From: Plasmodium relictum
Lineage: Eukaryota > Apicomplexa > Aconoidasida > Haemosporida > Plasmodiidae
Reading direction: 5' to 3'
Length of the DNA stretch: 64,000 nucleotides
Assembly (NCBI RefSeq): GCF_900005765.1
Contig: NC_041681.1
Location: 62,001 to 126,000 of the forward strand
In this document: piece after piece, positions 22,407 through 59,922 of the stretch
Position numbering within the stretch: position 1 is the stretch's first letter
Layout of the letters: every line of letters begins with the position of its first letter
Made by a program: the position numbers and the translations under genes
The notes under the pieces: generated by a model
What the model was told of the DNA's origin: nothing
The model's input: the letters and a program-made list of their open reading frames with translations, nothing else
Database searches by the model: none

Positions 22407-23315
22407 TTATTGATTTTTTTTAATGTTGTAAATAGCAACTCCAACACCATATGAATATTTGCAATAACATAAAAATGTTACATCATAATGAACATTTTCA
22501 GGTATCCATAGGTAAGAAGTTGTAGAAAATTTTTGAAAGTTTTTGTCTTTATCAAAAGATGAAAACTCAGGGTAATATTTTGCATCAGGTATTAAGTTAT
22601 TTATATTCATTGTTACTAAATTCAATGAGGATACTGAAAATGATACTGTACCAAAACAAGTAGGAGGCAATATCTGTATACCTTTAAAGTTCTTATCATT
22701 ATAATTATTGCAGTTAATCCCAACTACATCTCCTCCAGTAGCGTCTATTTCACAAATAAAACTTTCTCTTTGAGACATGGTCTTTGTTAAAAATTGTTGT
22801 TTTCCTTTATTATTACCGTAGTCGCATCCTTTAATATAATCTTCATTACTATTATAACTTTTTTTAGTTTTAAGAACTATTTTAATATATGGTGTTATAC
22901 CTTCTTTATTTGATTGATCACATGTACATACAATAGCTACATCTTCTTTCACATAAAAAGGAGCATATATGCCTAAATGATTTCTATTAAATTTAATTAT
23001 ATTCTCTAATATTATTCCTGGTAATGTTTGGTGTATCTCTTCTTCTTTATTATTAATAATAAGTTTATCTTTTATTCCTAAATACTTAAAACAGTAACTT
23101 GAGTTGTAATCATTATTTGCTCTATTTATAGGGCATAACAATTTTATAGCTTTATTGTAATCGTAATTAACCTCACAATTTCCAGTTGGATAATCTTTTA
23201 AATTGCAAATGTAGTAATCTCCAATTTTTAATTCTTTTACATCAAGCATATATATAGTGTAATAAGAAAAAAAATATATATATATAACTAATAATGAATA
23301 ATATGAATTTTTCAT
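22407..23315 (-). CDS. P36: 6-cysteine protein P36 (secreted, no GPI tail)
   Basis: A 302-residue s48/45 (6-cys) protein. After a signal peptide (LLVIYIYFFSYYTIYML) come two 6-cys domains with all twelve cysteines. Domain 1 cysteines occur in YIC, GNC, LLCP, YCF and the pair VCTC. Domain 2 cysteines occur in KGCDYG, FICEI, GINC, PTCFG and the pair LCYC. There is no C-terminal hydrophobic tail, so no GPI anchor; this and its place next to P52 identify P36. Known biology: P36 acts with P52 on sporozoites in entry into hepatocytes with formation of a parasitophorous vacuole. The start is the ATG at 23313-23315, the only one before domain 1; the frame is open further upstream but without another ATG. 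It is the downstream-most of three tandem, same-strand paralogues. At 302 residues it is somewhat compact for the family. Confidence 0.9.
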   Translation of the reverse strand: MKNSYYSLLVIYIYFFSYYTIYMLDVKELKIGDYYICNLKDYPTGNCEVNYDYNKAIKLLCPINRANNDYNSSYCFKYLGIKDKLIINNKEEEIHQTLPGIILENIIKFNRNHLGIYAPFYVKEDVAIVCTCDQSNKEGITPYIKIVLKTKKSYNSNEDYIKGCDYGNNKGKQQFLTKTMSQRESFICEIDATGGDVVGINCNNYNDKNFKGIQILPPTCFGTVSFSVSSLNLVTMNINNLIPDAKYYPEFSSFDKDKNFQKFSTTSYLWIPENVHYDVTFLCYCKYSYGVGVAIYNIKKNQ

Positions 23316-26004
23316 CTTTAAAAAAAAAAAAAAAGAAAAGAAAAAGGAAAAGTTTAAATAAAAAGATAAAATAGAATAAAATAAATACAAATGTATTGGT
23401 AATGAAAGGGAGCTACTAATATTTTATATTACTTATTCAATAGAATAATGCCAATGATAGTTAATGTTGTATTATATATATATATATATCAATTTTATTA
23501 TTTAAAATGCATTTTATAAAAATCAAGAAGTGAAATAAAAATAATAAATAAAAAATTTATTTATTAAAATGTATATTTATACATATATATATATATATTG
23601 TTACTAACAAAAAACACGGAAAATTTTCATATGATTATGTTTTACAAAATAAAATGCAACTATTAATTTATGTTATTTATCCGTATATATATATCCTTGT
23701 CTTTTTTTTTTTAATTTTTTTTTATTTTTATTTTTTTAAATGTAAAAGAATTTCACTATTACACAACACTTCAGAAATACAAAACGATTCAAAATTTTTC
23801 TAAAAAAATAAAGGTATTACGTTATATTCTTTATTTTAATCTATCTTTTACATAATTTAGTTAAAATAATATTTTATTATTTCTCTTTTTTTTTTTCTTT
23901 TATTCTTTTAAAAATAACATAAGTATAATAAATATATATATATATAAATGAAAATTAATAAAAAATAATTTTTTTTTTTTAACATGCAACTATAAGTAGA
24001 ACTAATCTTAGGTGAGTATTTAACTCAAAATATTATTTTCTTAGTTTTTTTTCGTTTTCTAAATATCTTTTTATATTTATAGCGGTCCAAAAAAATCAAA
24101 AAATCATCAATTTTTGTGCATGAAAAATGATATAATATTGTATTTTAACAAAGAATATGATTTGTTTCTATAACAAATCATAATTAGTAGTAATATCAGT
24201 AAAAATGATCATAAAAAAAAAAAAAATTTAAGTATATAACTACATATTTAAAGTACCATAAAATATATATATACACATTATTAATAAGTATTTCTTTTTT
24301 TTTTTTTTTTATATATAAAAAATTAACTTTTACTTTTTTTTATGTTATTAATTAATAAAAGTATGTGTTAATCTCTATGTAAGTTGAGCAAAGTTACATA
24401 TTCATCGAGATGTTTTAAACGAATGAAAATTAAAAATTCATAAAAGATATATTGTTTTAAAGCTTTTTAGAATGTAAGGAATTGGAAATAATTTTTTTTT
24501 TTCTCTATATATATTTATTTTTTTTTTACATAATTATTTTTATAATTTTTATAAAAATATTTATTATAAATTTTTATATAAGTATATATTTTATAGGAAA
24601 TAATATACAATGTGAAAAGTTAAATAACCAAAGAGGGGAAAATATCAAAGAAAAGAAGAAATATTCATAAAATAAATAGGAATATCCGATTATTTAATGA
24701 AATTTTAGAAGAGAAAATAGTTCATTAAGTATATTGTGTTCGTGTTTACATAAGGTTTTTATTATAAGTTATATGTATGATTTACGCGTGAATACTTATA
24801 CATTTAAATATGATTAAACATTTAGTTAACTTTAAATTAGACTTTTACATAAGAGAATTAATAAAAAAGTTATTAAAATTAGTAGATATTTATATGCATT
24901 CCCATTATTAATTTATTTGTTGAAAACTCTAGCAAAGTAGCTGAAAGGACAAGTAATAAATTTGTTATAGTTCACTTTTATTTTTAATTATTCTTTAGAA
25001 AAAAAAATTTTTTTTTCTTCTTATATCTTTATAGTTTTGGCAAGTATAATAATTCCATAAAAAATCTTTTTGTTAATTTCACAAAAGTAAATTATTTAAA
25101 ATAAAAGAAAATAAATATACATAAAAGTATAGAAATATATTAACTAATGCAATTATGCCTGTATATAACTATGAATAAAGTTTTAACCTTTAGATTAAAA
25201 AAAAAAGAAGAAATAGAATATATCTAAAATATTTTTTTAATTTGTTTTCATCTTATTATTTTCATAAAAGAATTACACCTTATGAAACATAATAAAAAGA
25301 AGTAAAAGACGAATTATTACTTATTGCAGGATCTAAAAATGTAAACATGCATTTCTTCATTAAATATTTTTATTATTATTTTTATTTAATAAAGCATAAG
25401 AAGCTTTCATTTCTTTATGCTATTTTAAGTTTATCGAAATATTCAATTTATTGCTAAAAATGAAATTTAAATTAAAAAAAAAAGAAAAACATATAATTTT
25501 ATAAAATATAATAAAATTAAAGTTATTACAAAAGTTTACGAATTCAATACAAAAAACAAATTATATATCTTATTAAAAACTTTAAAATATAAAAAAAAAA
25601 TTTTACTTCACTTTTTAATTATATTTTTAGTTCATTTCTATATAAAACATTATATATATATTATTAACAATGGATAAATAGATACATCAAAAATAAAAAA
25701 ACGATTATACCATTTTTGAATTATTAATTATATACAATATTAGAAACATAAAACTGTAAAAATATATTAGAAAAAACAAATGTTTAAATAATAATTAATG
25801 TGTTTATAAAAGTGGATATACATTATTGTATTTTGAAAATAATAAAAAAAAGAAATATAATGATGCTAATATATTTTAAAAAGAAAGATAAAAAATAAAA
25901 ATAAATTATTTCAAATGATAAGAATCGAAAAAAAAAAAAATGTATATGGTAATATATTTATAAATATACACGCATGTAAAAAAAAAAAAAAAAGGTTATA
26001 ATTT
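23316..26004. other. Intergenic: upstream region of P36
   Basis: About 2.7 kb between P36 and P52, both leftward. It holds TGCATG sites at 24117-24122 and 25346-25351 (the latter as CATGCA) and poly(dA:dT). The open frame at 24482-24670 is low-complexity and not supported as a gene. Confidence 0.7.
24117..24122 (+). promoter_or_regulatory. TGCATG motif upstream of P36
   Basis: TGCATG within TTGTGCATGAAA, about 800 bases before the P36 start codon. P36 is a known sporozoite gene and TGCATG is the AP2-Sp core, so this is a candidate activator site. Motif match and position are the only evidence. Confidence 0.4.
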
Positions 26005-27387
26005 TTAATATATATGAATAAGTAAGAATATAAATAGTAGATAATTAAGTGATATATAATATGAAGAAGATAATCCAAATAAATTTTGCCAGAAAGTCCT
26101 TTTACTTCTATTTTCAATATTTAATTTATCATTAAAACCATTTACATCAATATTATTATTTTTAAATAAATTTTCAATAGTTTTATGGCCATCATTACGA
26201 GAAACATTATTATTAATATAGTTATAAATATCATCAGAATAATCTAAATTATGTTTATCTTGTAAATTTGATTCATTTTGATCATGTTGATCACTTTGAT
26301 CATTTTGATCATTTTGATCATTTTGATCATTTTGAATATTTTTGTTAATTTGTCCAATTTGTTTAATTTTCCCAATTTTCTTAATTTGTTCAATTTGCTC
26401 AATTGGCTCAACTTGCTCACTTCCCTCATTTTCATTTTGTTCGTTATTTTCTTCAGCATTATTTTTTCTTTTGTCAACATCATCATCTAACAACTTTTTT
26501 TTTGTTTTAATGAAAATAATCATAGTACCCGCATATTCATTTCTTTTACAGGCACAACCTATTTTTAAATTTTCCTGTAAATTATCTGGTAAAATTATAT
26601 AAGAAAAAAAAGAATGCATTTTTGTTAATGATACATCTTTCGAAGGATCAGGTATAACTCTAGAATTTGGTATTAGATTTTTTGAACTTAATACTAAGTC
26701 ATAACCATAAAAAACATTATGAAAACATTTATTTGGTATCAAATGTAAGTTATCATTATAATTATCATTATTATCTTTTTTAAAACAATTTATTCCAACT
26801 ATATCACCAGGGTAAGCATGAATAATACAAGAAGAGCTTTCATTTAATGATCTGTTATTTGCAAAATCTCTTCTCGATTTTATATTATCTCCAAAATCGC
26901 ATCCTTTAATTTTTTTGTTTGTTTTTCTAAAATTAATTCTCATTATATGTTTTACCTTAGTTTTTTTATTTCCATAGCATAAACAGCTAAACTCAATATC
27001 TTTATTAGAATAAAGAGCGCCATAAAAGGCAAAAGATGCTCTCAAAGCAGAATTATTAGTTCCAAATAAATTTTGAAAAACGTCGTATGTATTAGTTTCT
27101 GGTGAGTTTTCATTTGGATTATTTTGATTTACATACGTTTTGATTGCACAATCAGCAGGTTTTGAGAGAGCCATCAAACTATTAGAATCATCTACTTTGC
27201 AAATAAATACTAGTAATTTACCAAATTCATTTTCTAATATACATTCTTCAACATCATCTGATTTCGTATTTACAATACAAAATTTTACATTTCCTATAGT
27301 TTGTACTGGTTTTATTCTATTACTATAAACCACGTAATTGTAAATAGTATAAACAAAATAATATAATATAGCCTTTTTATATTTCAT
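26005..27387 (-). CDS. P52: 6-cysteine protein P52 (GPI-anchored)
   Basis: A 460-residue s48/45 protein with a signal peptide (AILYYFVYTIYNYVVYS), two complete 6-cys domains, a long low-complexity linker and a C-terminal GPI signal (GLSSSYYISLNYLLFIFLLI). Domain 1 cysteines occur in KFC, EEC, FICK, ADC and the pair SCLC. Domain 2 cysteines occur in KGCDFG, SSCI, GINC, NKCF and the pair GCAC. The linker after domain 2 has EQIEQI/KIGKI repeats and NDQ triplets, unusual for this family. P52 forms a complex with P36 on sporozoites and is needed for productive hepatocyte infection. The ATG at 27385-27387 immediately precedes the signal peptide. The GPI tail distinguishes it from P36, and position between P36 and the third paralogue fits P52. 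Confidence 0.9.
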   Translation of the reverse strand: MKYKKAILYYFVYTIYNYVVYSNRIKPVQTIGNVKFCIVNTKSDDVEECILENEFGKLLVFICKVDDSNSLMALSKPADCAIKTYVNQNNPNENSPETNTYDVFQNLFGTNNSALRASFAFYGALYSNKDIEFSCLCYGNKKTKVKHIMRINFRKTNKKIKGCDFGDNIKSRRDFANNRSLNESSSCIIHAYPGDIVGINCFKKDNNDNYNDNLHLIPNKCFHNVFYGYDLVLSSKNLIPNSRVIPDPSKDVSLTKMHSFFSYIILPDNLQENLKIGCACKRNEYAGTMIIFIKTKKKLLDDDVDKRKNNAEENNEQNENEGSEQVEPIEQIEQIKKIGKIKQIGQINKNIQNDQNDQNDQNDQSDQHDQNESNLQDKHNLDYSDDIYNYINNNVSRNDGHKTIENLFKNNNIDVNGFNDKLNIENRSKRTFWQNLFGLSSSYYISLNYLLFIFLLIHIY

Positions 27388-27516
27388 ATTTTATTGAAAG
27401 TTACAAGGCATAACAAAAAAAAAAATAAAATAAAATATTTTAAATAGAAATAAAGACACCAAAAGAAATATAGTATGAAAACAGGTGAGGAAGAGAAAGA
27501 GAAAAAGAAAAAGAAA

Positions 27517-27643
27517 GAAAAACAAAAACAAAAACAAAAACAAAAACAAAAACAAAAACAAAAACAAAAACAAAAACAAAAACAAAAACAAAAAAATAAA
27601 AACAAAAACAAAAACAAAAATAAAAATAAGAACAAAAACAAAA
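27517..27643. repeat. CAAAAA hexanucleotide array
   Basis: About 20 units of CAAAAA, with a few AATAAA interruptions near 27596 and 27620, lie 130-255 bases upstream of the P52 start codon. Strand-asymmetric (purine-rich + strand). Probably length-polymorphic. Confidence 0.95.
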
Positions 27644-28254
27644 TGACAAAAATACAAAAAAATAAGTATATTATTTTAATTATACTCAAGTAAAGTAATT
27701 AAAAAACAAAACAACGAAAAAATGAATCTTATTATTAATTCAATTTTAATTAAACTTTCTAATAGAAATGTTAAAGTTTTGACTTTAAGAAAAACATAAG
27801 AGAATATAAAAAAAAAAATAGAAACATGTATTACAGTAGTAATAGAAATAAAAATGAAAATATAAACTGAAACAAAAACAAAATAACAAAAAAAAAAAAT
27901 AAAAAAACATTAATAAAATTATTTTTTATATTTATATTAAAGTAAAATTACTGGAAAAAAAAGAACTAAAAAATAAATTTTCAAATAAAATGAAATTATT
28001 TCATTTTAAAATATTTTACATCATTTTTTATAGATATAAAATCAAATTTGAATAAATAATATACAAAAAAAAAATTATGTTACTTTAAAATCAAAATGTG
28101 CTACATATTTTGTTTCATGGAGAAATTAAAATTCTACTTTTAAACAACGAAAATTATATAAAAATACATATATATGTTTATATACTTATATAATTTTACA
28201 AATTAATTGTATATCTTGTTAAATTAATTCAAAATATATAAGTGAATTTTCTAA

Positions 28255-29741: not shown

Positions 29742-30845
29742 TTATAAAATGCAATATATATATGTGTAAATTAAAATAATAAATAAAATGGAAAAGTATT
29801 CTAATGCAGCACTTCCTTCATCTTCATCACTTACATTATTATTGTTTAGTACTTTTTTAGTTATTTCCTTTTCATTTTTTCCTTTATTATATATACTATA
29901 AGTAAATAAACTAGAATTTTTTTCTAAGTTTAAAAAAAGAGTACCTGAATAAAAATTGGATGAATAGTAATTAACAATTGTACAAGAGCATTTGATTATT
30001 GATGTTTCTTGTATAAAAGATGGTAATAGTAAATAAGATAACAATTTTTTTCTGTTATTATTATAATAAAAAAAGGATTCTGGAATTACCTTTACCCCAT
30101 TAATCAAACCGTAAATATTAGTTTCTTCATTATTTTCATTTAAAACTATATGAAAACAAAATAATGGTGAAATAATAAAATTACTATTTTCATCACTAGA
30201 GCATTGAAAGAAAATTATATCATTTGCACGAGCATTAATAGTGCAACTACTATTATCCTTTAAATATAAATTTACCTCTGAAGAATTTTCATTTTTCTTA
30301 ATATTTTCTGAATAATAAAAATTACAACTTTTCACATCTTTTGTGTTTTTAGAAACTTTAATATCTAATTTAAATACTTTTTTTTTATCTCTATCAACAC
30401 AATAACAAGAAAAAATTATGTCTTCATATATGTTATGAAGCATATAGAAAGAATATAAATGTAATGAACTACCTTCATATGAAACAATATTAGGTAACAA
30501 TTCTTCCAATTTTTTTGCTTTTTTTTTATCGCTATCTACCATAACGTTATTAAAACATACATTATCATTATTTATCTTAAAATTATTAAAATATACATTC
30601 TCATTATATTTTAAAACATCAGTTGGACAATAAAAATTTATACGTTTACCAAATTCAATATTTATGTTACATTTTTTTTCATTGATATATTCTGAAACAC
30701 AAAGCGTTAAATCACCTTTTTCCATAAAACAAAATACATTTTTTTTAAATTCTAATACAATTATTAAATACAGAATAATAATCATTAAAAATGTTGAATG
30801 AACAAAAAAATAACTTTTTACAACAAAAAAACAAATGTTATACAT
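29742..30845 (-). CDS. Third tandem 6-cysteine protein, divergent, GPI-anchored
   Basis: A 367-residue s48/45-family protein. It has an N-terminal hydrophobic signal (FLMIIILYLIIVLEF), two domains with twelve correctly ordered cysteines, and a GPI signal (GSAALEYFSILFIILIYT). Domain 1 cysteines occur in TLC, KKC, FYCP, NVCF and the pair SCYC. Domain 2 cysteines occur in KSCNF, SSCT, FQC, LFCF and the pair KCSC. The usual GCD(F/Y)G at the start of domain 2 is replaced by KSCNFYYS, and GDIVGINC by NDIIFFQC, so it is diverged but keeps every disulphide cysteine. It lies upstream of and on the same strand as P52 and P36. From memory, in P. falciparum and P. berghei the gene next to P52 is the giant membrane protein, with no 6-cys gene between. 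It therefore looks like a lineage-specific or elsewhere-lost paralogue. The start ATG is at 30843-30845. Confidence 0.88.
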   Translation of the reverse strand: MYNICFFVVKSYFFVHSTFLMIIILYLIIVLEFKKNVFCFMEKGDLTLCVSEYINEKKCNINIEFGKRINFYCPTDVLKYNENVYFNNFKINNDNVCFNNVMVDSDKKKAKKLEELLPNIVSYEGSSLHLYSFYMLHNIYEDIIFSCYCVDRDKKKVFKLDIKVSKNTKDVKSCNFYYSENIKKNENSSEVNLYLKDNSSCTINARANDIIFFQCSSDENSNFIISPLFCFHIVLNENNEETNIYGLINGVKVIPESFFYYNNNRKKLLSYLLLPSFIQETSIIKCSCTIVNYYSSNFYSGTLFLNLEKNSSLFTYSIYNKGKNEKEITKKVLNNNNVSDEDEGSAALEYFSILFIILIYTYIYCIL

Positions 30846-31724
30846 AGTTAAATAGCTATTTTATATTAAGACACATAGTAAATATGCATATTTCCTATTT
30901 TAAAGAATGTAATTTAATTTTACTGATTTATTAAAAGTAATGCAATGAAATATTTATGTGCACATTAATTGATAAGTTTTTATTAAGAAAAAGGGAAATA
31001 ACTTAAATCAAATTTGAAATAATATAAATATTTTGTCTTAAAACAAATCATAATGATAAATAAAAAAAAAAAAAAATTAAAATAATTATATATTTTATAC
31101 AATGAATTTAAGTATGGAGAATTATTTGCAAATATAAAATTTAGCACACTTATATGTAAGCAATACATTAAAAAAAAATAAAAACAGTTATTTAATGTTC
31201 CAATAAAAATATATAATCAAAAACATATATATATATGTATATAAACGTTTTAAACAAAAAATTGTCAAAATATATTTATTATAACGTAATTTTTACTAAA
31301 ATTTTTTTTCCGAAAAATAAAATCCTTTATGTGTGTTCAAAAAAGGATTAGGAATAAACTAAGAAGAAGTAAAGAATTCAAATACATAAAAATTAAGATT
31401 TTTTTTTGTCATAAATATATATAATAAAAAAATAAAAAGAAAAATATATCTCTAAACTTAAATACGCAGATTAGTTGCTGTTATTAACCTCAAAATTTAC
31501 ATATGTGGTATTTTTTAAATAAGTTTATACCATTAAAAAAAAAAATAATTTTTAAATAAATTGTTTTTTGAAGTTAACTACTTAAAGTGACTAAAATATA
31601 AATATATTTATCTTCAAAATATGAATATCTTTTGTTATGTAAATATCTTGAAAATAAATCACTTTTTTTCCTTGTGTGGAAAAATCATACTTCTCATATA
31701 TCGTATAGAGACGAAATCAAAAAT

Positions 31725-31734
31725 TGCATGCATG
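31725..31734. promoter_or_regulatory. TGCATGCATG double motif upstream of the third 6-cys gene
   Basis: Two overlapping TGCATG cores about 880 bases before the start codon, at nearly the same distance as the P36 site. This suggests the extra paralogue shares sporozoite control with P36/P52. Motif evidence only. Confidence 0.4.
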
Positions 31735-34700: not shown

Positions 34701-35619
34701 AAATGAATATATTTTGTAAAACTTAATAATCGAAAACCACAATATAGTGTATTGAATTCCTTACTTGCATTAACTTTTGTAACTATTTAATAATCGATCT
34801 GCTTAATACAAACAATTTTTTTTTTCTTATATCTTTTTTTATTACATATAAAATCATATTCCAATTTTCATTTTATTTTAATTTTTTTTTTTTTTTTTAA
34901 ATTCTATATTTTTAACTTAATAAAAAAAAAATAATTATATAAATTAATACATTTTATATAAATACTATTCACAGTAACAGATAGCATACAAAAAATAAAT
35001 ATACAATATAATTTATAAAATAAAATATAAAATAGTAACGATTTTCAAAAATTGTATGATTTATTCACGAATAAATATATTATTTTTATTTTTATGTATA
35101 TGTTTTTTTTTTTTTCTTAGTTGCACTATTACTCACAGCGCCCCAATATATGCGTGTAATATACCTGAAAATTTTGATAATTCTTAAGGACAGGATTATA
35201 ACATTAGTTATTCTAGCTTACTATATTAAATTATTATTAATATATCTTTATGAAACCAGTATTTTTAAATTTTGAATTGCATTTTTGATAAAATAATTTA
35301 TTGAAACAGTATTTTCAAAGAAAAATAAAATATCCTCATAAAATTTAAATATCTTTTAAAAGAAAATACATATCTACCATTATATTTATAATTTTATTAG
35401 CATGAATATATATATAATATAATTATTCTAAATATTTTCATATATACTTTTACTATATATTAATGTATGTTTATTAATATTTCATATATTTAAGCATTTT
35501 ATTTTATATAATAAAATATAAATTTGCATATTCTTATATATGTAATTCTTCTATTAAAATGGTAATGTATTTTTATTATATATATATATATATATAAAGT
35601 AAAAATATAATTTTTATTT

Positions 35620-35783
35620 TTCATAAAAAAAATATATTTTCATTACATATATAAGACAAAAGAAAAAAGAAACTTATTTCAAAGAACAGAAAATTTTAAC
35701 ATTCATAAAAAAAATATATTTTCATTACATATATAAGACAAAAGAAAAAAGAAACTTATTTCAAAGAACAGAAAATTTTAACA
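35620..35783. repeat. Exact 82-bp tandem duplication
   Basis: The sequence from 35620 to 35701 (TTCATAAAAAAAATATATTT onward) is repeated without mismatch at 35702-35783. The unit is not simple sequence, so this is a recent duplication. Confidence 0.95.
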
Positions 35784-40252: not shown

Positions 40253-43200
40253 ATGGATAAAAATATATATAATTTTTTAAATATTAACCAGAAAATTTCT
40301 CAGGAAGAACTAAATTTAATAATCAGTAATATGAAAAAAGAGAATAAAAAAGATAAATTACATAATGTTTTAAATGAAGTATATAACTTTCAAGAAAATA
40401 AATTAGAAGAAAAACATTTTTGTACATTAAAAAATAATGATAAAATAAATGAAAATATAAGGATCATAGATCATTTTGAGAAAAATAATTTCCCTTTTTG
40501 TAATGGAAACAACAAAAAAAAAAATCAAGTATACTCAATGGAAGATGCTCTAAGCAGCATGGACATACAAAATTCCTCAAATTTATTAAAATCAAGTATA
40601 AAAAGAAAAGAAAAAAATAAAAAAGTTGATAATTATGGTAGTAATAATAATAATAATAATAGTGATATGCATGTAAATGAAAATTCAGAAAAAAATATCA
40701 ATTTGAATTCTTTTAATTTGAATAAATATACAAAAAATGATATGAAGTTATTCATGATTCATGATAATATAATTAATGAACAAAAAAGGAATAATTTTAA
40801 ATGTAAGAATATGCAAGATTCTATCACTAAAAATAATAAAAATTGCAATATTGTAAATTTAGAAGAAATAGACAATAAAATTAAAGTGAACACAAGAAAT
40901 GATCAAAAATCAAAAAATATAAAAGAAACTAGCTATGAAGATAAGAACTGTTTTATTAATGCATTTAATAATCTTGAAAATAATCACGTATTTGATTATT
41001 TTGTACATGAAAATCTAAATAATCTTAATAATATACATTCTGATAATCTATACAAGTATGATAATGTCAATGAAAGAAATCATATATTTGAAAATAGACC
41101 AAATTATATAAATGAACATAATTCAAACTTTATAAATGAAGATATAATTCATATAAATAACAATAATGATAACATGAGTTTACCTAATAATACAAATGGC
41201 AACAATAATTTAAAAAACTTACGTGATTCATTGAATATAAATCCATCATTAAACATTTATAAATATTTTACAAATAAAAATAAACAAGTACACAATGTTA
41301 ATGAGATGTATACGAATTTTAACGATAAAAATAAAAATAGAATAATTGACGATAAAGAAACAGATGATTTCAATAGAATAATTAATTATAATAAAACAAA
41401 TAATAATAATATATTAATTAATGAAATTAGAAATGCTAATAACTCGATAGCTAAAGAAAATGAAGTAAATAATTACGAAAGTAGAATAAATTACAATGAA
41501 AATGATAATTTTGACAATAGAGCAATGGGTAATTATATTACCAATAATAACATAAATTATAAAAATTTAACGAATTTAAATAATTTCAATAATAAAAAGA
41601 ATGACTACAATATTGATTTTTTAGGAGATTATATAAATAACATGAATATAAATAAACTAAAAATAAATAGCATAAATAATAATAATGTGAATATGACTAA
41701 TTTAAATATGTATAATAATAATAATAATAATAGCATAAATTATGATGAACAAAAAATGCAAGATATGAATAAAATGCAAGTAGTAAATAATTTTAAAAAA
41801 GATGAAATAAATGAATTAAGGAATAATTTAATAAATAATAAAAATACGAATATTCAAAATATAATGAATTATAGCAATTGTAATTTTTTGAAAAATGATA
41901 CAAAATTATCTGGGTTTTCATTGGATATTAATACATTAAATAGCGCTGAATATAACTTAAATAATTCTTTATATAATAATTTTACAAACAATATGAATAA
42001 ATTAGAAACTGATTTAAGTGAATATGAAAATTATAAGGAAAATATGAAAATATATGGAAGTTTAAGTCAAGAAAACTCAAGTAGTAAAAATATAAAACCT
42101 AATTCATACTTTAAAATGAATGCTCTTAATAATACAAATATAAGAAATGATAAAATAAACGATACAATTTTAAATTTTGATGAAAAAGCAAAATGGTTAT
42201 TGGATTTCAATTTCGAAAAAAATAATTTCAGTCCGTCAAATACATTTATGTTTAATGAAAAAATGATGAATAAAAATAATATGTACAATTTAAATATTAA
42301 AGATGATTTATTAAGTAATATAAGAATTGAAAATAATAGTGAAAAAGATAAAGAAAAAAGCATAAATTGTGATGAATATAATAAATTTGGCAATGTGCAT
42401 TTTGAAGATTATATTGAAAAAGTTAATATAGAAAATAACCATGTTACCAATAAAGTAAATTATTATGCTATTAATAATGAAAAAAACAGTAAAGATTATT
42501 TATTTAATGCGTTGAATGAAAATAAGGGATTAATTTTTACAAATGGAATAAAAAGTTTAAAGTATGATTGCTCTAATAAAAATTATGATCTTAAACTTTT
42601 GAAAAATAATGGAGCTTTAGAAAAAAGTAAATTCAATAAAAAAGGAATTATGTTTGATTCATCTGGTTATAATTCTGATAATTCAAAATCTTCTAATATG
42701 TTTAATGGAAAAAAAAAAACAAAATCGAAAAAAGACATTTTATTTGATGTCAATAATAATGATGATGCTTTTTTGAATGATATCAATTTAAATAATAATA
42801 AATTTGATTATAAATTGGGAGTTATAATGCAGAGTATACGAGATTACAGTAACAAAGTGTTTAACGATTTATTTATGAATAACGATCCTTTTAAAAAAAA
42901 AAAGATAAATGAACTGAATTTATATTTATCAAAATTAAGGGTCAAAAATTGTGATGAATTTTTTTTCAATTTAAATAAATTTTACGAAATTGTTCTTACG
43001 TTACCTAATTCAAATTACATATATAAGTACAATTCATCTATTTTATATAATATTTGTGTAGTAACAAAAAACCTTCTGTTATTACTTCATTTAGGTGTTT
43101 ATATATTTCATATTATTAAAACCTGCTTGTTTTGTATTGTAAAGTTAATCTTAATAAAACCTGTTTCAATTATAGATAAGGTATGGTTTTTTTTATTAAG

Positions 43201-46200
43201 TTTATATAGATGTTTGTTTGAAAAATTATATGAATATTTTCAAAACGATTTGAATAGTGAAAATTTACTCAACAATAAAATATTTCTAGGAATAATTTTA
43301 TCGTTTACAAATGTTTTTAATGAAACTTTAATGGAATATGCAAAAATTCGTGTATTGTCTAGAAATAAAAAAAAAGAAGAACTTATTGCCTTTCCATTAT
43401 ATGAATCACTAAAACCTTTTTTCTTTGTATGTACAAATTATACAGAAGAAGAAATAAAATCAGAAGATGATAATTACATAAATGAAAAAAGAAAAGATGA
43501 GAACAATAATGAATATAATAAAGAACTCATGGAAGAAAAAGTAAAGAAAACAGAGTTAGAAAAATGTATTAATAATTTCGATGAAAAAATGAAAATAAAA
43601 AAAAATGATAAAGAGAGTGAAAAAGAAAAGAGAGAAGAGATAGAGAAAGAACAGGGAAAACAAGAAAATAAAATATCCTTAAAAGAAAACAATAATGAAA
43701 ATCATATTGATAATTTAATTGATGTGGGATTTACAAATAATATAAAGGATAGTGATATATATGATAAAAATATAGAAAATAGTAATATTTTTATTTCTTC
43801 TAAAGTATATACCAAAAAAAAAATCGAAGATGAATTATTAGTTTCAATAAGAAGTAATGTCTTATGTTGTGTTCATACATTAATCAAAATGTTTTCACAT
43901 ATTTACATAAACAACTGGGATAAAATTTTATATTATTACAATGAAAAAAGAAAAAAAAGTATTCCAATTTTTATGTCTATTACAGTAAGTGATCGAAATC
44001 AAAAATTAAGAGCTAATGCAATATTATGCTTAAAATATTTATTTGATTGTAAACAGCTGAAATACTGGTTTTTACTAAAAGATAATAATAGTAATAATAA
44101 TGACAATAATGCAAGTATTGTTGATAATAATTATAATAATAATAATGATTATATAGATAATAGCTCTATGAATAACAAAAACGATTCCTTTAATTTATTA
44201 AATAATAGTAAAATTCTTAATACTTTACCAGATGAAGAAAACAATTTCGCTTTAAATAAAGATGAATTATCACAAAATGAAATTATATCAAATAATTTAA
44301 ATAGTATAAATTTTAATAAATCGATTTATATAGATAAACATGGAGAATCAAATAATATTACGTCTAATCAGTATAATTCTATTTCAAATAGCACAAATAA
44401 TTTTAATAATAATAACATTAATAATTTCAGTAACAAAAATTCTTCGAATATAAATAATTTTGATAATGAAAATAAAGCATTAACAGAATCAGAAAAAAAT
44501 AAAAATAATCTATATGATGCACATATTAAAGAAGAAATTAGTGATAAAATGAATCCTTCTAATATGAAAATGATAATGACTAAACAAAATGTTGTAAAAA
44601 TATTATATGCATTAATAAAACTTATAATTAAGACATATACTTTAGATAATAAAAATAATTTTTATACAGCTGCAGATAGATTAAATATTTATCGTTTCTT
44701 TTTACGAGTTTCTCAATCAATATCGATGACTAGATTTAAAATTTTTCTATTTCCAATTTTAAAAATATTTTTTTTCTATTTGTTAAAATATCTTATTTAT
44801 TTCAACCATGGTGACACTTTTCATTTTTGTGTTGAAAGATTACTTCAAAATAATAATAATTTATATAATAAAGTAGAAAGAAGTAATTCTAATGATTTTT
44901 TCTCGAATAACGAAGAAAATAGTGACAAAGCAAAAAATGATAATAATATGAATGGTGTGAATCCTTTATATGATCTTAATTGTAATAATAATTATATAAA
45001 CTCCAACAAGAATAAGCATATAAATTGCGAACAAATTAATGATGACTATTTTTTTCAGAACTACTTGGATGAAGATGATCGCATATTTAGCTCATTAAAC
45101 AATTATATAAATAGTTTTAAGGAAAATGATGAATATGATGACAGTGAAGATGATATGAGGGAAAACATAACAGAAAAAGATAATGATAAGGCAAAAGAAA
45201 TACAAGAAGAAAATGAAGAAAGAAATATTTATGGTGATAATGAAATGAATGAAGAAAATGAAGTACAAGAGGAAGAAGAAGATGAAGAAAAACAGGGAAA
45301 TGGAAAGAAAAATGAAAAAATAAAAAAAATAAATAAAAATGAAAAGAAAAAAAAAAAAGGTAAAAAAGAATGTGACGATAATAATAAAGAAAATACAAAT
45401 GTTAAAATTAATAATGATGAAAATAAAGATGTGGAAAATAAAAAAAGTAGTACAGTAAAAAATGTATGTTCGTGTAAAATTGAATTAGGTAATATAGCAA
45501 AAAATAAAAGAAAAATTAACAAAAAAAAGGGTTCTAATGATATTGCTTCTATGTATAAAAATATAGATAAAATAAATAAAAAGTTAATGTCTAAAGAAGA
45601 TTATAAATTATTAATAAATATACTATATAGTAATGAATATTCTAAAAATTCTAAATATATATGTACAATCACTGTTATAATTAATATATTTTCTGTTCTT
45701 TTATGTGAATATAATGAAGATATGTTTCAATTTCTTTGTAGTAATATATATGGAGAAATTATCAATAATAAATTAAATAATCATAATATTTATTGTGGCA
45801 ATTTGTCTCAAAATTATCTCTATAATATATCATTTTCTCAGTTAATATATTTTATGTTAATTTTTTTATACAAAATATTTTATCAGCATACTTTGAATAA
45901 AAATGATGTTTTAGCAAAAAATTTAAATACAGCTAATATAAACGATAATTTTTTTTTACATAAGAATGAAAACATAAATAATGTGTCCAATACTACTAAT
46001 ATTGATAAAGTGTATTCATTTGATGCAGATAGTAAATATGGTTTTGAAACTTTTAATAAAGACAAAGAAAATAATTATAAATATGAAAAAAGACAAACGA
46101 TGAGTTCTTATAATGATTTATATGACAATTACATCATTTCTTATATGCAAAAGGAAAATAATGATCATAATAATATAAATGTTGTTGATAAAAATAATTT

Positions 46201-49200
46201 AGTACCTTATGATATTCAGATATTTAAAAATATATTTTTAGTTTTTCAGAAAACTTTAAAATATTATTTATTTTGTTATATGCATTGTTGGAAAGACGTA
46301 AAAAACTTATTGGAATATTTTTTACAATCAGAAAATATAAATATTAAAGTTATTTCAATAAAAATAGTAATTGATATATTTGTTTTTATTAATTCTTATT
46401 ATGATAATAATTCTAATGAATATGAATTACCGATTTATAAACAAAAAGATGAGTTTAAAAATAACCAAATTTTTAATAATTATAATAACAATATACAACA
46501 ACAACAATTAAATGAAAATTCCAAATATTCTAAAGATTGCATAAATACTAAAGTAAATGCTTACTTAAATACAAAGGATTATATACCTAATAATGAAAAT
46601 GAGAATAATATAAATATTTACAATAAACTTAATTCAGATACCTTGAATAATTTATGTAAAAATAAATATAATTCCATACATAATGATTTTATCAATACAA
46701 AAATAGAAAATTATATAGATGTTGATATTAAGAATATAAATAATTTACATGTAATAAATAATTTGAATAACTTTAATTATACAAAAGACTCAAATACTAT
46801 TGATAATGCAAGGTATGTCTATGATGATAATAATAATAATAAAGATAATAGTAATAATAATAAAGATAATAGTAATAATAATAAAGATAATAATGATAAT
46901 AATAAAGATAATAATAACAATAATAATAATAATAGTAAAGATAGTAATAATAGTAATAATAATAATATTAATAATGTGCATGATGATAACTATAGTAACA
47001 ATATTAATAATGTTAAGATTAATAATCACAATTGTAATGGAAATAGCTTTAATAATAATGATGATACTACTACTAATAATAATTATATAAGTCACAGAAG
47101 TGTTCCTGATTCAATTAATTCCAATAGCAATATAAACACTATATCAGAAATATTCACTGATCAAAAAAAATTAAACATTACAAAACATAATTTAGAAAAA
47201 AGTATTGATGTAAATAATGTTACAAATAAAAAGGAAGTATATTACACTAAATTAGATGAATTAGATCAAAATAGCAAAAAAGCGAAATTTATAAAAATTG
47301 TAGAAAATGATATGATTTATTTATTTCGTAAATATATATTAATACATATTCATAATATAAATAAGATTCATGATGATGTAATTAATAAAAGAAGTAAAGT
47401 GAAACATATATTTTTAAATACCATTATTTGCATTTCTCAGTTAAGTTATGAAGGCTTTAAAATTTTAAAAATTGAAGATATCCAAAAACTAACTAATTTA
47501 GTTTCTTCATGTGTTCATAGTATTAAATGCAATATTATAACAGCATTAAGTAAATATATTATTAAATATATTTTTGCTTTTAACAAGAAGTTTATTCAAA
47601 ATTATGAAAAAAAAATTAATTTATTGCACATGAATTCTACCAACGTTTATTTTAATAATATTCTCACAACAACAAATAATTTTAATATTAAAAAAAATAT
47701 AAATGTTGATGCTCTATATATTGCAGAAAATATATTGAATAATAAAAATTTTAAATCACATAGTAATGAAATATTTGAACCAAATGCTAAGGAAAGTGTG
47801 AATTATACTACTAATTCCTGCTCATTAAATAGTAGTGTTAATAAACAAATGAATATAACTGATAATAATATGAATAATAAAACGTACACGAATCTAAGTG
47901 AAAGTAATTCACTTCTACAAAAAAATGAATATAATAATACACAGTATTTTATGAATACAGATAACTCTTTAATATGTGATAAAATACATTCATATGATAA
48001 CAAAAATAATTTTTTTGACGAACATGTAATGAGTCGTACACAGTCAACAATATACAACTCAGAAATTAATAATGATTACAGTACCGCAAAAATGAATTTT
48101 GATTCATCGAAAACAGAAGCATGTACGAGAGATGTAATAGCATTAGAAAATGTAGTCAACGTAATTCCTGATGAATATAATTCTGATAAAAGTCATAATC
48201 TGAGTGACAGTTCTTTTGCAAAAAAGGGAAAAACTCAAGGCAAAGAAAGAATTATGATTTCTGATCATAATGTTAATACTTATTCAAATGCAAATAATCA
48301 AAAAAATGATTATTCTTTTAATAATGAATCTATGAACCATAAATGGGATGGATATATTGATAACTATAGCTTAAATGAATATAATAATGAATTATTCAAT
48401 ATGCATTACGGAAAATTTATAACACAAGAAAAAAATAATTGTTTTGATTCTAATAATTTAAAGAAAATGGAAAGTAATATAAACAATGATAAAGAGAAAA
48501 TGAATAATGAAGAACAACTAAGTAAAATAAAAAATAAAAAAGAAGAAATAAAAATAGAAGAAAGAATAGAAGATAAATGTATAATAGAAGTAAGTAATTT
48601 TGATATTAATAACGATGAAAATAATACGAATAACTCAACACATAATTTTCTTGATGTTCATAAATTAAGTCAACCTGTTCAATCATTAATTAATTCTAAA
48701 GGAAAAGATAAATATGATTTTGTTAATTCTTACATGGATTCAGAAATAGATAAGTATTATTTAAATGATCTATTTCCCATTGAAAAATCTGAAAACAAAA
48801 AATGGAAAGATATATATATGTTAGAAAAAAAGAGAAATGAAAAAAAATTATTTGAATTATATTATACATATATTTATATTATTATTCACATAATTAAGTT
48901 TTATAATGATTCCTTTGTTGATTTGAAGTATTATACATACAATTGTATATGTGAAATTGCAAGTTCCTATATTCCATTTTATTTCACACAGAAAAATATT
49001 AAAACATTTTCGTACTATAGTAATTATAGTAGTGAAGAAAATAAAGATATTAACAAGTTTATTGATTTTATAAATAATATCAACTTATCTACTGATATAA
49101 ATAGCTTAAACTTATATAACTTAAATAAATTGAATAATAATATTAATGAAAAATGCACTAATAAAGATAGTGATTATGATAACATAAATAATGAAAATAA

Positions 49201-51136
49201 TCTCATTGGTAAATCATTTCAAAATTCAAATAACAAAAACAAAATAGTGTGTGATAAAAAAAAAAATATTAACAATAATATAAAAATATCAGAAAATCAC
49301 GAAAAATCACTAACTAATATAATTACATGCTATAATAATATGAATGAAGTATTTTTAAATAATATATATTTAATTTCATACATTGAATATATATATATAT
49401 TATTATTAATCATAAGAGAAAACAAAAACGTAGAAAAAGACAGAGCAGTTTGTTGTATAATTAGATATGTAGGTTTCATTTGTAAAAATATGAACTTTTT
49501 TTTATTTAATTCCATTAATTTATTGCCTTCTACGTTTCTTATTAAATATTTTATATATTTAAATAATTTAATTGAAAAAAGATCATTCGACTTCTTTAAT
49601 TCTGATGAATCAGATAAAGAAATGAATAAAAAAGAAGAAACAGAAAAAGATCAATTATTAAATGAAAAAGATGAAAATTCAATTATGAAGCAGCATATGC
49701 AAGCAAAATTTGATATTAAGGAAGGAAAGTCATGCAATAATTATATTCATGAAATTGATATTTTAAATAAGAAAAAATTAAAGGATTTAAAAAACAATAA
49801 TGAAAAAAGTAATTTCATAGAAAAAAATAATCATGCTAGTGATGAAAAAAAACAATATCCGAAATTATATCACTTATTTTTGAATGTATATATAAAATAT
49901 GAATATGAATTTGATGACTGTTTTTTTTCATTTAACAAAAATATGCAAAAAAAAAAAAATATAATGGAAGATGCAGAAAATTACAATAAAATAAAAAAGA
50001 CAATGATCAACGAAAGTATAAATGAATATGATATAATAAATAACGAAAATTTAGAACATTTGAAATGTGATACCACCTTACATCATTTTAATGAAAACAT
50101 ATTTGAATCATATTCCGATAAAAAAGAAAAAAATATATGTTCAAATCCAATCATAATAGAAATAAGTGATATATTCAACTCAAATTTAAGTAAAAATAAT
50201 CTTATAAATAATCCCAATAATGTTGACGCTAAAATTATTTTATATTTATTATCAATAGTTAAAGATCATATAAAAAATAAAATTACGTGGAATGTATTAT
50301 ATGCTTTTAAATTAATTTATAATAATTTTTCTTTTTTCCTTGCTCAGAATTTTTCTGAATTGCATTATAAGATTTTAGATAATTTGATAAATACATTAAG
50401 ATTCACTAATGTTTATAAAATTAAAATACTATCATCATTGGCTTTAATTCACATTCCTTTATATTATAATATTAGTAAACAAAAATTGAAAGAACTGTGG
50501 GAAACTTTAATATCGAATATTTCCTTTTTTGATGTAATTTTTGTTGATGATAAATCCAAATCAAATCAATTCGTTTATTATTATGACAAGGCGTTAAATT
50601 ATATAACTATTAGTAAAAAAACAGAATATAAATATAAATGCACATTAAGGGTTAATATTTGTGAATTACTATATATATGTATATATAGATCATATATTCA
50701 TGCGAATATAAACACATATATTGAAATTGATAATAAAAAAATAAATTGTTATGAAGTTTTTAAAAAACACACACATATCTTTAATATTAATAACGATATA
50801 CACATATACAATTTAAATCATATATATAATAATCATGTTATGTATTATTCATTTTACAATCAAAATAATTCTACTCAAACTCACACAGAAGAAAAATATA
50901 TAGATAAAGATGATAATACAAATTGTTATATTTTAGAAAAAAAGGAAGAAAAATCCCATGATGATGATATTTTTGAACTTAAGTTATTTTTAAATGATCA
51001 TTTTGATAAATATCAATCTGTTTATAAGAATTTATTAGGAACAAGTAAAAACCCAATTTTTTTAGTACTCTTTTTAAAGCTTCATTATGAAATAAAATTG
51101 TCATTAAAAAAATATATAGAAAGAAAAAAGAAGTAA
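40253..51136 (+). CDS. Giant HEAT-repeat protein, HEATR6/DUF4042-like, 3627 residues
   Basis: A single-exon protein with Asn-rich low complexity over most of its length and islands of helical sequence. Residues about 1190-1275 (VSIRSNVLCCVHTLIKMF, then NNWDKILYYY, then SDRNQKLRANAILCLKYLFD) match the pattern of the DUF4042 region of HEATR6. Residues about 3340-3425 (NKITWNVLYAFKLIYNN, then YKIKILSSLALIHIP, then LKELWETLISNI) match the C-terminal HEATR6 helices, where human HEATR6 also has a W-N-x-x-Y/H-A-L/F motif. A hydrophobic stretch at about 940-990 may explain why orthologues are often labelled membrane proteins; it may instead be buried HEAT helices. Function is unknown in the family; HEAT arrays bind other proteins. 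It is the only rightward gene in the window, divergent from the third 6-cys gene and convergent with DPAP3. Existence is near certain; the HEATR6 link is recall-based. Confidence 0.9.
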   Translation: MDKNIYNFLNINQKISQEELNLIISNMKKENKKDKLHNVLNEVYNFQENKLEEKHFCTLKNNDKINENIRIIDHFEKNNFPFCNGNNKKKNQVYSMEDALSSMDIQNSSNLLKSSIKRKEKNKKVDNYGSNNNNNNSDMHVNENSEKNINLNSFNLNKYTKNDMKLFMIHDNIINEQKRNNFKCKNMQDSITKNNKNCNIVNLEEIDNKIKVNTRNDQKSKNIKETSYEDKNCFINAFNNLENNHVFDYFVHENLNNLNNIHSDNLYKYDNVNERNHIFENRPNYINEHNSNFINEDIIHINNNNDNMSLPNNTNGNNNLKNLRDSLNINPSLNIYKYFTNKNKQVHNVNEMYTNFNDKNKNRIIDDKETDDFNRIINYNKTNNNNILINEIRNANNSIAKENEVNNYESRINYNENDNFDNRAMGNYITNNNINYKNLTNLNNFNNKKNDYNIDFLGDYINNMNINKLKINSINNNNVNMTNLNMYNNNNNNSINYDEQKMQDMNKMQVVNNFKKDEINELRNNLINNKNTNIQNIMNYSNCNFLKNDTKLSGFSLDINTLNSAEYNLNNSLYNNFTNNMNKLETDLSEYENYKENMKIYGSLSQENSSSKNIKPNSYFKMNALNNTNIRNDKINDTILNFDEKAKWLLDFNFEKNNFSPSNTFMFNEKMMNKNNMYNLNIKDDLLSNIRIENNSEKDKEKSINCDEYNKFGNVHFEDYIEKVNIENNHVTNKVNYYAINNEKNSKDYLFNALNENKGLIFTNGIKSLKYDCSNKNYDLKLLKNNGALEKSKFNKKGIMFDSSGYNSDNSKSSNMFNGKKKTKSKKDILFDVNNNDDAFLNDINLNNNKFDYKLGVIMQSIRDYSNKVFNDLFMNNDPFKKKKINELNLYLSKLRVKNCDEFFFNLNKFYEIVLTLPNSNYIYKYNSSILYNICVVTKNLLLLLHLGVYIFHIIKTCLFCIVKLILIKPVSIIDKVWFFLLSLYRCLFEKLYEYFQNDLNSENLLNNKIFLGIILSFTNVFNETLMEYAKIRVLSRNKKKEELIAFPLYESLKPFFFVCTNYTEEEIKSEDDNYINEKRKDENNNEYNKELMEEKVKKTELEKCINNFDEKMKIKKNDKESEKEKREEIEKEQGKQENKISLKENNNENHIDNLIDVGFTNNIKDSDIYDKNIENSNIFISSKVYTKKKIEDELLVSIRSNVLCCVHTLIKMFSHIYINNWDKILYYYNEKRKKSIPIFMSITVSDRNQKLRANAILCLKYLFDCKQLKYWFLLKDNNSNNNDNNASIVDNNYNNNNDYIDNSSMNNKNDSFNLLNNSKILNTLPDEENNFALNKDELSQNEIISNNLNSINFNKSIYIDKHGESNNITSNQYNSISNSTNNFNNNNINNFSNKNSSNINNFDNENKALTESEKNKNNLYDAHIKEEISDKMNPSNMKMIMTKQNVVKILYALIKLIIKTYTLDNKNNFYTAADRLNIYRFFLRVSQSISMTRFKIFLFPILKIFFFYLLKYLIYFNHGDTFHFCVERLLQNNNNLYNKVERSNSNDFFSNNEENSDKAKNDNNMNGVNPLYDLNCNNNYINSNKNKHINCEQINDDYFFQNYLDEDDRIFSSLNNYINSFKENDEYDDSEDDMRENITEKDNDKAKEIQEENEERNIYGDNEMNEENEVQEEEEDEEKQGNGKKNEKIKKINKNEKKKKKGKKECDDNNKENTNVKINNDENKDVENKKSSTVKNVCSCKIELGNIAKNKRKINKKKGSNDIASMYKNIDKINKKLMSKEDYKLLINILYSNEYSKNSKYICTITVIINIFSVLLCEYNEDMFQFLCSNIYGEIINNKLNNHNIYCGNLSQNYLYNISFSQLIYFMLIFLYKIFYQHTLNKNDVLAKNLNTANINDNFFLHKNENINNVSNTTNIDKVYSFDADSKYGFETFNKDKENNYKYEKRQTMSSYNDLYDNYIISYMQKENNDHNNINVVDKNNLVPYDIQIFKNIFLVFQKTLKYYLFCYMHCWKDVKNLLEYFLQSENINIKVISIKIVIDIFVFINSYYDNNSNEYELPIYKQKDEFKNNQIFNNYNNNIQQQQLNENSKYSKDCINTKVNAYLNTKDYIPNNENENNINIYNKLNSDTLNNLCKNKYNSIHNDFINTKIENYIDVDIKNINNLHVINNLNNFNYTKDSNTIDNARYVYDDNNNNKDNSNNNKDNSNNNKDNNDNNKDNNNNNNNNSKDSNNSNNNNINNVHDDNYSNNINNVKINNHNCNGNSFNNNDDTTTNNNYISHRSVPDSINSNSNINTISEIFTDQKKLNITKHNLEKSIDVNNVTNKKEVYYTKLDELDQNSKKAKFIKIVENDMIYLFRKYILIHIHNINKIHDDVINKRSKVKHIFLNTIICISQLSYEGFKILKIEDIQKLTNLVSSCVHSIKCNIITALSKYIIKYIFAFNKKFIQNYEKKINLLHMNSTNVYFNNILTTTNNFNIKKNINVDALYIAENILNNKNFKSHSNEIFEPNAKESVNYTTNSCSLNSSVNKQMNITDNNMNNKTYTNLSESNSLLQKNEYNNTQYFMNTDNSLICDKIHSYDNKNNFFDEHVMSRTQSTIYNSEINNDYSTAKMNFDSSKTEACTRDVIALENVVNVIPDEYNSDKSHNLSDSSFAKKGKTQGKERIMISDHNVNTYSNANNQKNDYSFNNESMNHKWDGYIDNYSLNEYNNELFNMHYGKFITQEKNNCFDSNNLKKMESNINNDKEKMNNEEQLSKIKNKKEEIKIEERIEDKCIIEVSNFDINNDENNTNNSTHNFLDVHKLSQPVQSLINSKGKDKYDFVNSYMDSEIDKYYLNDLFPIEKSENKKWKDIYMLEKKRNEKKLFELYYTYIYIIIHIIKFYNDSFVDLKYYTYNCICEIASSYIPFYFTQKNIKTFSYYSNYSSEENKDINKFIDFINNINLSTDINSLNLYNLNKLNNNINEKCTNKDSDYDNINNENNLIGKSFQNSNNKNKIVCDKKKNINNNIKISENHEKSLTNIITCYNNMNEVFLNNIYLISYIEYIYILLLIIRENKNVEKDRAVCCIIRYVGFICKNMNFFLFNSINLLPSTFLIKYFIYLNNLIEKRSFDFFNSDESDKEMNKKEETEKDQLLNEKDENSIMKQHMQAKFDIKEGKSCNNYIHEIDILNKKKLKDLKNNNEKSNFIEKNNHASDEKKQYPKLYHLFLNVYIKYEYEFDDCFFSFNKNMQKKKNIMEDAENYNKIKKTMINESINEYDIINNENLEHLKCDTTLHHFNENIFESYSDKKEKNICSNPIIIEISDIFNSNLSKNNLINNPNNVDAKIILYLLSIVKDHIKNKITWNVLYAFKLIYNNFSFFLAQNFSELHYKILDNLINTLRFTNVYKIKILSSLALIHIPLYYNISKQKLKELWETLISNISFFDVIFVDDKSKSNQFVYYYDKALNYITISKKTEYKYKCTLRVNICELLYICIYRSYIHANINTYIEIDNKKINCYEVFKKHTHIFNINNDIHIYNLNHIYNNHVMYYSFYNQNNSTQTHTEEKYIDKDDNTNCYILEKKEEKSHDDDIFELKLFLNDHFDKYQSVYKNLLGTSKNPIFLVLFLKLHYEIKLSLKKYIERKKK
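46824..46975 (+). repeat. AATAAAGATAAT (Asn/Lys/Asp) coding microsatellite
   Basis: Units encoding NNNKDNS/NNNKD repeat in the linker of the giant HEAT protein. Both strands stay open across it, which makes false Ile-rich frames. Confidence 0.9.
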
Positions 51137-58854: not shown

Positions 58855-59922
58855 TTAACTTCTGAAGGATTTTTTTATAATGCCACTTTCCCCTCCTTTT
58901 ACATTCAATTCAAAAATGTAATTATCAAATTCATGCTGAGTTGATCTACATTTGCATTGAATAGTGTAATCACTTTGTATAAAATGAGGCAATTGTAAAT
59001 AATAAGCATAATAATTATTCTCTGTACTTCCATAGGAAATGTATCCTGGCATAATATCTTTTAAATTGGTACTTGTATTATTATAAAAAACATTATCAAA
59101 ACAGTTGTTTGGCTCAGTAGAACCATGGGTATCATAAATACATTTAAATCCTACAAAATCACCAGGTTTTGCTTCAATCCTACAAACTCTACCACCATTA
59201 TGTTTCTCTAAAGGAAATGGTTTTGTAAAATGATCAGAGAAGGCAACACCGAAATCACATCCACTTATTTTATAAGAATTTTTAGAAACAACAACTTTCA
59301 TAATTCCATATTTATGTGTTGATTTTTTTACAACAAGTTGTGGTTCCTCTAAAACCACCTCTTCATTATCTTGTTGTTGTTGTTCATTTTTTTTTTGTAT
59401 ATTATTTACAAGCTTGTTCACCTTATCTAATGCTCTTTGATCATTTTCATTTATTTGCTCTTCTTCTTCTATTATTTGCTCCTCTTCTTCCTTTTTCTCT
59501 TTTTCCTCTTTCCCTTTTTCCTTTTTCTCTTCTTTTACTTCTACTGGTAATACTTTATTTTCTTCATCCGTTTGTAAATCACAAAAACAATGGAATGTTT
59601 GATTTTTTATAACTGCTGGTGATACTATAAGATTATTTTCATAAGCTATTGATCCGTATAATATAGTATTTATCGATATTACTGATCTATTTAGATTTTT
59701 CGTATCATTATATAAACTTACACTATGAAAACATTTTGTTCCAGCATGTTTGGGGCATATAAAAGTTAATATATCAAATGGTTTGGCATTTATTTCGCAA
59801 ATTTTATTATTTGAATGTTTAATTAAATTTTCTTCTTTTGTAAAATCACAGACATGATTTTCTGGGTAAGCAGAAAATTGCTTTATGCATAATAGTAAGG
59901 CATATAATATATATATATTCAT
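58855..59922 (-). CDS. P41: 6-cysteine protein P41
   Basis: A 355-residue s48/45 protein; signal peptide IYILYALLLCIKQFSA; start ATG at 59920-59922. Domain 1 cysteines occur in HVCDF, KICEI, FICPK, TKCFH and the pair HCFC. Domain 2 cysteines occur in SGCDFG, RVCRIE, GFKC, NNCFD and the pair QCKC. Between the last cysteines of domain 1 and its final strand there is an insert of about 80 Glu/Lys/Gln-rich residues, resuming at KYGIMKVVVSKN. An insert in this position is characteristic of P41 and is known to be involved in binding its GPI-anchored partner P12 on merozoites. There is no GPI tail, as expected. The gene is separated from the P36/P52 cluster by about 28 kb. Confidence 0.92.
   Translation of the reverse strand: MNIYILYALLLCIKQFSAYPENHVCDFTKEENLIKHSNNKICEINAKPFDILTFICPKHAGTKCFHSVSLYNDTKNLNRSVISINTILYGSIAYENNLIVSPAVIKNQTFHCFCDLQTDEENKVLPVEVKEEKKEKGKEEKEKKEEEEQIIEEEEQINENDQRALDKVNKLVNNIQKKNEQQQQDNEEVVLEEPQLVVKKSTHKYGIMKVVVSKNSYKISGCDFGVAFSDHFTKPFPLEKHNGGRVCRIEAKPGDFVGFKCIYDTHGSTEPNNCFDNVFYNNTSTNLKDIMPGYISYGSTENNYYAYYLQLPHFIQSDYTIQCKCRSTQHEFDNYIFELNVKGGESGIIKKSFRS

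Follow-up and report, generated by a model that had tools for sequence, protein, structure and literature searches.

The main finding obtained in this work concerns gene X, an intact 6-cysteine gene of the bird parasite Plasmodium relictum, located on the minus strand at 29742..30845 of the stretch of DNA that was analysed (64,000 nucleotides of contig NC_041681.1, hereafter the window), directly upstream of the P52 and P36 genes. Our findings suggest, with moderate confidence, that gene X is a third, old member of the P52-P36 cluster and that it encodes a glycosylphosphatidylinositol (GPI)-anchored sporozoite surface protein for entry into the first host cell. Both the gene and the family to which it is assigned had been made public before, and an equivalent in P. 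vivax has been published; gene X is probably an old member of the cluster and not a bird-only invention.

Gene X consists of 367 codons from the first ATG with no internal stop; were stops as frequent as in the flanks, a given start would be followed by 367 open codons with a chance of about 9e-16. The public model (P0002) has 347 amino acids and starts 20 codons after the first ATG, at residue 21 (30785), the residue with which the start of the P. gallinaceum counterpart also aligns. Comparison with the Pfam family s48/45 (PF07422) gave 66.3 bits over two stretches (cut-off 24), and 12 of the 15 cysteines lie inside the two domains, six at residues 49, 59, 73, 97, 147 and 149 and six at residues 174, 201, 215, 230, 286 and 288. 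All twelve are identical and in the same order in P. gallinaceum, and the modelled protein shows the tandem beta-sandwich fold of this family. An earlier note on this DNA had described an intact two-domain s48/45 protein with twelve cysteines, which these results bear out; of the signal peptide and GPI tail that it also described, the hydrophobic stretches at the N- and C-terminus were found by hydropathy, while cleavage and attachment remain putative. The features of gene X are as follows:

29742..30845, minus strand: gene X, two-domain 6-cysteine protein (open reading frame, Pfam, P. gallinaceum alignment)
30723..30845, minus strand: N-terminal hydrophobic leader, residues 1-41, with hydrophobic 15-residue windows starting at residues 11-23 (hydropathy only)
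30339..30716, minus strand: s48/45 domain 1, residues 44-169 (our own cut), spacing of 10 between its first and second cysteines, C1-C2 (Pfam, spacing table)
29976..30335, minus strand: s48/45 domain 2, residues 171-290 (best Pfam stretch 171-289; modelled strands)
29742..29816, minus strand: C-terminal hydrophobic tail, GPI-signal-like, residues 344-367 and stop (hydropathy only; similar tail in P. gallinaceum)

Among solved-structure sequences the sole match of gene X was 2loe (E 0.0017, or E 0.28 with a profile), P52 and P36 having no match there at E 0.1. A weak RhgB_N Pfam match (15.1 bits, cut-off 27.2) was taken as chance. Domain 2 carries KSCNFY and RANDIIFFQC in place of the GCD(F/Y)G and GD(I/V)VGINC motifs of P36 and P52, so that gene X, judged by these motifs, is a relative of P36 and P52 and neither of the two. 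The loss of GCD(F/Y)G and GDIVG(I/F)NC had been pointed out in the earlier note, but the same sites vary in other domains of the genome (a P230-like domain, for example, has KGCNFH and YVNDIIGFNC), and gene X retains the -ND-I- core.

The three genes stand in the order 5'-X, P52, P36-3', all on the minus strand, the tandem arrangement that had been noted before. In P. gallinaceum, the protein P0003, annotated as '6-cysteine protein, putative', is 72-73% identical to gene X and, on the alignment, is its orthologue.

The kinship of gene X was studied among the 6-cysteine paralogues of P. relictum. A Pfam scan of the whole genome (22.6 Mb) gave at least 38 s48/45 matches; 36 of these 38 exceeded the cut-off, including one that did so only in combination with its neighbours, and the counts are lower bounds. 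P92-like, PTRAMP-like and several partial P230-like and LISP2-like matches were left out of the trees and of the spacing table. The labels were assumed from chromosome correspondence: we take C11a and C11b to be P12p and P12, C10 to be P38, and C12a and C12b to be P47 and P48/45, and the names PTRAMP (C14), P230, P92, LISP2 and DPAP3 are assumed in the same way. In a profile comparison with 11 paralogues, in which P52 was represented by residues 1-300, the best match of gene X was P52 (68.0 global, 79.9 local), followed by P36 (49.6 global, 53.2 local) and the P38-like gene (36.6 global, 46.2 local); P52 also ranked first in blastp with gene X as query. In the two-domain tree (12 proteins, with the first and last domain used for two three-domain proteins), gene X, P52 and P36 grouped together at 88/92, the three internal arrangements of the group differing by less than 0.1 log-likelihood units. 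Domain 1 alone grouped gene X with P36 at 88/86 in the single-domain tree (37 rows, four of them from P. gallinaceum and P. ovale) and with P36 and P52 at 84/81 in a separate domain-1 tree of 12 rows; for all three trees the programs warned of long branches. The cysteine spacing of domain 1 agrees with the two-domain tree: the C1-C2 spacing is 10-12 residues in gene X, P52, P36 and LISP2 (6 of the 38 rows of the table, P. gallinaceum and P. ovale included) and at least 17 in the other 32 rows, three of which show only 4-5 cysteines. Therefore, from the spacing, the profile comparison and the two-domain tree, which is not decisive, gene X was placed with P52 and P36, where the earlier note had also put it, in what looks like an old tandem triplet. 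In this genome, P52 and P36 are at least as close to each other as either is to gene X, and this is read as an old split.

Two other genes were observed in the scan. L018 (C12:1718929-1722267, minus strand) is a further 6-cysteine gene with hydrophobic ends. Its domain 1 is interrupted by a single in-frame stop, which may reflect decay of the gene, an error in sequencing or an uncommon arrangement of exons. L030 (C14:913244-916573), with one s48/45 match and a transmembrane-like tail, looks like PTRAMP, a name that we assume.

Previous studies on P. vivax bear directly on the age of gene X. On P. vivax chromosome 3, the 6-cysteine gene PVX_001015 lies at a microsyntenic breakpoint, upstream of P52 and P36; a GPI anchor is predicted for its product, and P. 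falciparum has no homologue (PMC4689532). The order of genes in the window puts gene X in the matching slot. The subgenus Plasmodium was reported to carry PVX_001015 as an extra GPI-anchored paralogue, with the duplication also in Haemamoeba, the bird-parasite subgenus, and, apart from a partial P. chabaudi copy, with absence from Vinckeia; the account is not entirely uniform, as one of its sentences limits the paralogue to 'only' the subgenus Plasmodium (PMC9876418). PVP01_0303900, a putatively surface-exposed 6-cys protein, was described as more abundant in P. vivax sporozoites than any other protein that lacks an orthologue in P. falciparum; syntenic orthologues of it occur in P. knowlesi and P. 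cynomolgi, but neither P. falciparum nor P. yoelii has one (PMC5552340). It is probably the same gene as PVX_001015, because both share the family, the predicted GPI anchor and the lack of a P. falciparum orthologue, and because its number, judged against that of PVP01_0304200, which is given as the orthologue of PF3D7_0404800 (PMC9380936), puts it in the right place. PVX_001015 was also listed, with PVX_001020 as pf52, among sporozoite-specific genes (PMC2850316). Six-cysteine gene counts are 15 in P. vivax (one a pseudogene), 14 in P. falciparum and 13 in P. berghei, with 22 such proteins counted in Haemoproteus (PMC7425995). The claim of the earlier note that P. falciparum has no gene at this place agrees with the reported absence from P. 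falciparum and P. yoelii (PMC5552340), and the same claim for P. berghei agrees with the reported absence from Vinckeia, the partial copy apart (PMC9876418). Its suggestion of a novel, bird-only gene was set aside because of PVX_001015 (PMC4689532) and the Haemamoeba report (PMC9876418), in addition to the P. gallinaceum copy already annotated. Of the two readings that it offered, a lineage-specific third partner of the P36-P52 complex and the loss of an ancestral gene from mammalian parasites, the second is the better one, although such a loss would concern only some mammalian parasites.

P36 and P52 are both needed for productive entry of sporozoites into hepatocytes (PMC5470872, PMC9906020), receptor use being governed by P36 (PMC5470872), and both were deleted in an attenuated vaccine (PMC9309271). 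Their heterodimer was modelled head-to-tail, in agreement with electron microscopy and small-angle X-ray scattering, and the P12-P41 pair is arranged likewise (PMC13372241). We hypothesize that gene X was kept in bird parasites and, as PVX_001015, in P. vivax and its relatives, and is missing from P. falciparum and rodent parasites. Its product would be GPI-anchored and exposed on the salivary-gland sporozoite, the architecture being, to judge from the sequence, that of an anchored, P52-like partner from the same cluster. As P36-P52 and P12-P41 form head-to-tail pairs, its two beta-sandwich domains may likewise bind a 6-cysteine partner, plausibly P36 or P52, or else a host surface protein, and when the first host cell is entered it would act either jointly with P36-P52 or alongside them. 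A more daring version, which we put forward tentatively and regard as doubtful, is that X-P52-P36 formed an ancestral three-gene entry module of the sporozoite, with gene X as an alternative anchored partner of P36, and that when the P. falciparum and rodent lineages lost gene X, recognition of the first host cell changed as well. P. berghei without P52 and P36 is not restored by the P. vivax pair (PMC5470872); incompatibility with B9 was offered as a reason (PMC9906020), and a missing third protein is a further possibility.

Several results weigh against this reading of gene X as an old third member with a part in sporozoite entry. In protein searches no relative of gene X beyond P. gallinaceum was returned, the other matches being two P. 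ovale P52 proteins; the method, which needs shared 5-residue words and likewise did not return the P52 and P36 of the same genome, gave no counterpart sequence from Haemoproteus or the P. vivax side, because of which the bird-vivax orthology rests on position, architecture and the Haemamoeba report (PMC9876418). With the P. gallinaceum protein as query, blastp put the P38-like gene at the top, then P36, then P52. The phmmer results were split: the P38-like gene was the sole paralogue listed for gene X, and P52 the sole one listed for the P. gallinaceum protein. Domain 2 alone paired P36 with P52 without gene X (98/93), and forced groupings of gene X with the P38-like gene or with P41 were not rejected (p-AU 0.143 and 0.136). 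In the literature, PVX_001015 was derived from a duplication of P36, which can be read as two separate events (PMC9876418), and PVP01_0303900 is labelled a pseudogene (PMC5552340). PVX_001015 was included in a merozoite protein library, where the change in patient IgG was less than two-fold and the blot very faint (PMC4689532). 'A six-cysteine protein' is among 50 avian-specific core genes (Bohme 2018, PMC5880244), which may or may not be gene X; if it is, that clustering kept PVX_001015 apart. The sporozoite stage itself is suggested via the P. vivax counterpart only.

Part of this evidence would suit a bird-lineage tandem duplicate of P52 or P36, independent of PVX_001015, with the shared slot due to a duplication-prone locus. 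The avian-specific gene of Bohme 2018 (PMC5880244), the lack of a P. vivax-side match in the protein searches and the equal fit of all orders inside the group could be explained in this way, but the same slot upstream of P52 and P36 in P. vivax (PMC4689532), the same plan of leader, two domains and GPI signal, and the near-equal distances among gene X, P52 and P36, read as an old split, argue against it; we consider such a duplicate possible, though unlikely. It could also be that gene X descends with P52 and P36 and acts in the merozoite, the gamete or the second exo-erythrocytic round, with no part in sporozoite entry, as might be expected from the many stages served by 6-cys proteins (PMC9309271), from the presence of PVX_001015 in the merozoite library (PMC4689532), from the suggestion that avian-specific genes may serve a second exo-erythrocytic cycle (Bohme 2018, PMC5880244) and from the diverged domain 2 signatures. 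The abundance of the P. vivax counterpart in sporozoites (PMC5552340) and the blood-stage expression of only 2 of the 50 avian-specific genes (Bohme 2018, PMC5880244) speak against this, and we judge another stage of action to be rather improbable.

That gene X is an artefact, whether a misassembly, a pseudogene or a displaced P12, P38 or P41, is very improbable. No point in its support was found, and the open frame is conserved at 72-73% in P. gallinaceum. A displaced P41 was rejected, as P41 lies elsewhere in the window and matches a solved P41 chain, and displaced P12 or P38 is disfavoured, as the two-domain genes that we presume to be P12, P12p and P38 sit on other contigs. B9 was not recognised in the whole-genome s48/45 scan, so that its comparison with gene X falls outside the tested set; as far as tested, the displacement of P12, P38 or B9 that the earlier note had named as a refutation did not appear. 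A protein search of the P. relictum genome with gene X gave gene X alone among 8 scored candidates; it missed even P52 and therefore excludes only close copies.

Besides gene X, the window contains the following genes:

26005..27387, minus strand: P52 (P36p) (s48/45; tree pairing with a P. ovale protein)
22407..23390, minus strand: P36 (s48/45; no C-terminal hydrophobic tail)
58855..59922, minus strand: P41 (solved P41 chain 4ys4_A, E 1.6e-67)
40253..51136, plus strand: giant 3627-amino-acid open reading frame flanking gene X on its other side (list of open reading frames)

The P. ovale protein that pairs with P52 was found along with another named '6-cysteine protein (P36p)', and the gene at 22407..23390 is presumably P36 from its position and its missing hydrophobic tail. 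Between gene X and the giant frame, in the about 9 kb upstream of gene X (30900-40200), no stop-to-stop frame exceeds 78 codons. Past the giant frame follow a papain-family protease (Pfam) and then P41, and a gene that we take to be LISP2-like lies on the same contig beyond the window, an arrangement that presumably resembles a region of P. falciparum chromosome 4. Upstream of P52, at 27503-27662, there is a long array of A-rich hexamers, with about 21 copies of AAACAA at 27514-27643; although it can be read as an open frame rich in Phe, Cys and Leu, it is of low complexity. The gap between gene X and the giant gene holds an 82-base tandem repeat at 35620-35791 (2.1 copies, 97% matched), and 18085-19452 on the minus strand encodes a Glu/Asp/Lys-rich protein of imperfect repeats, with no Pfam match.

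A third neighbour of P36 and P52, apparently common to bird parasites and P. vivax and reported absent from P. falciparum and rodent parasites, would have consequences for work on sporozoite entry. If the third protein takes part in entry, findings made with rodent and falciparum parasites may not hold for P. vivax, one of whose abundant sporozoite proteins would then acquire a function as well as an evolutionary history. If the three-gene module is true, work on rodent and falciparum P36-P52 has studied a reduced system.

Compared with known 6-cysteine proteins, gene X shares with P52 the tandem position and strand, two s48/45 domains, a hydrophobic C-terminus, the short domain 1 C1-C2 spacing, an EFGK motif and the best profile match. 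However, the two are only 29% identical over 199 aligned columns, and P52 retains KGCDFG and YPGDIVGINC and has a long linker before its tail. P36, the second-best profile match, belongs to the same cluster and has the same domain 1 spacing of 10, but lacks the C-terminal hydrophobic tail and retains KGCDYG and TGGDVVGINC. The first domain of the gene that we take to be LISP2-like also has a spacing of 10, in a much larger protein that keeps CDF and has a low profile score. PVX_001015 (probably PVP01_0303900, despite the pseudogene label of the latter) resembles gene X in position and architecture, as a 6-cysteine gene upstream of P52/P36 that is predicted to encode a GPI-anchored protein and lacks an orthologue in P. 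falciparum (PMC4689532, PMC5552340). P. gallinaceum P0003 combines its 72-73% identity with all twelve cysteines and a similar hydrophobic tail.
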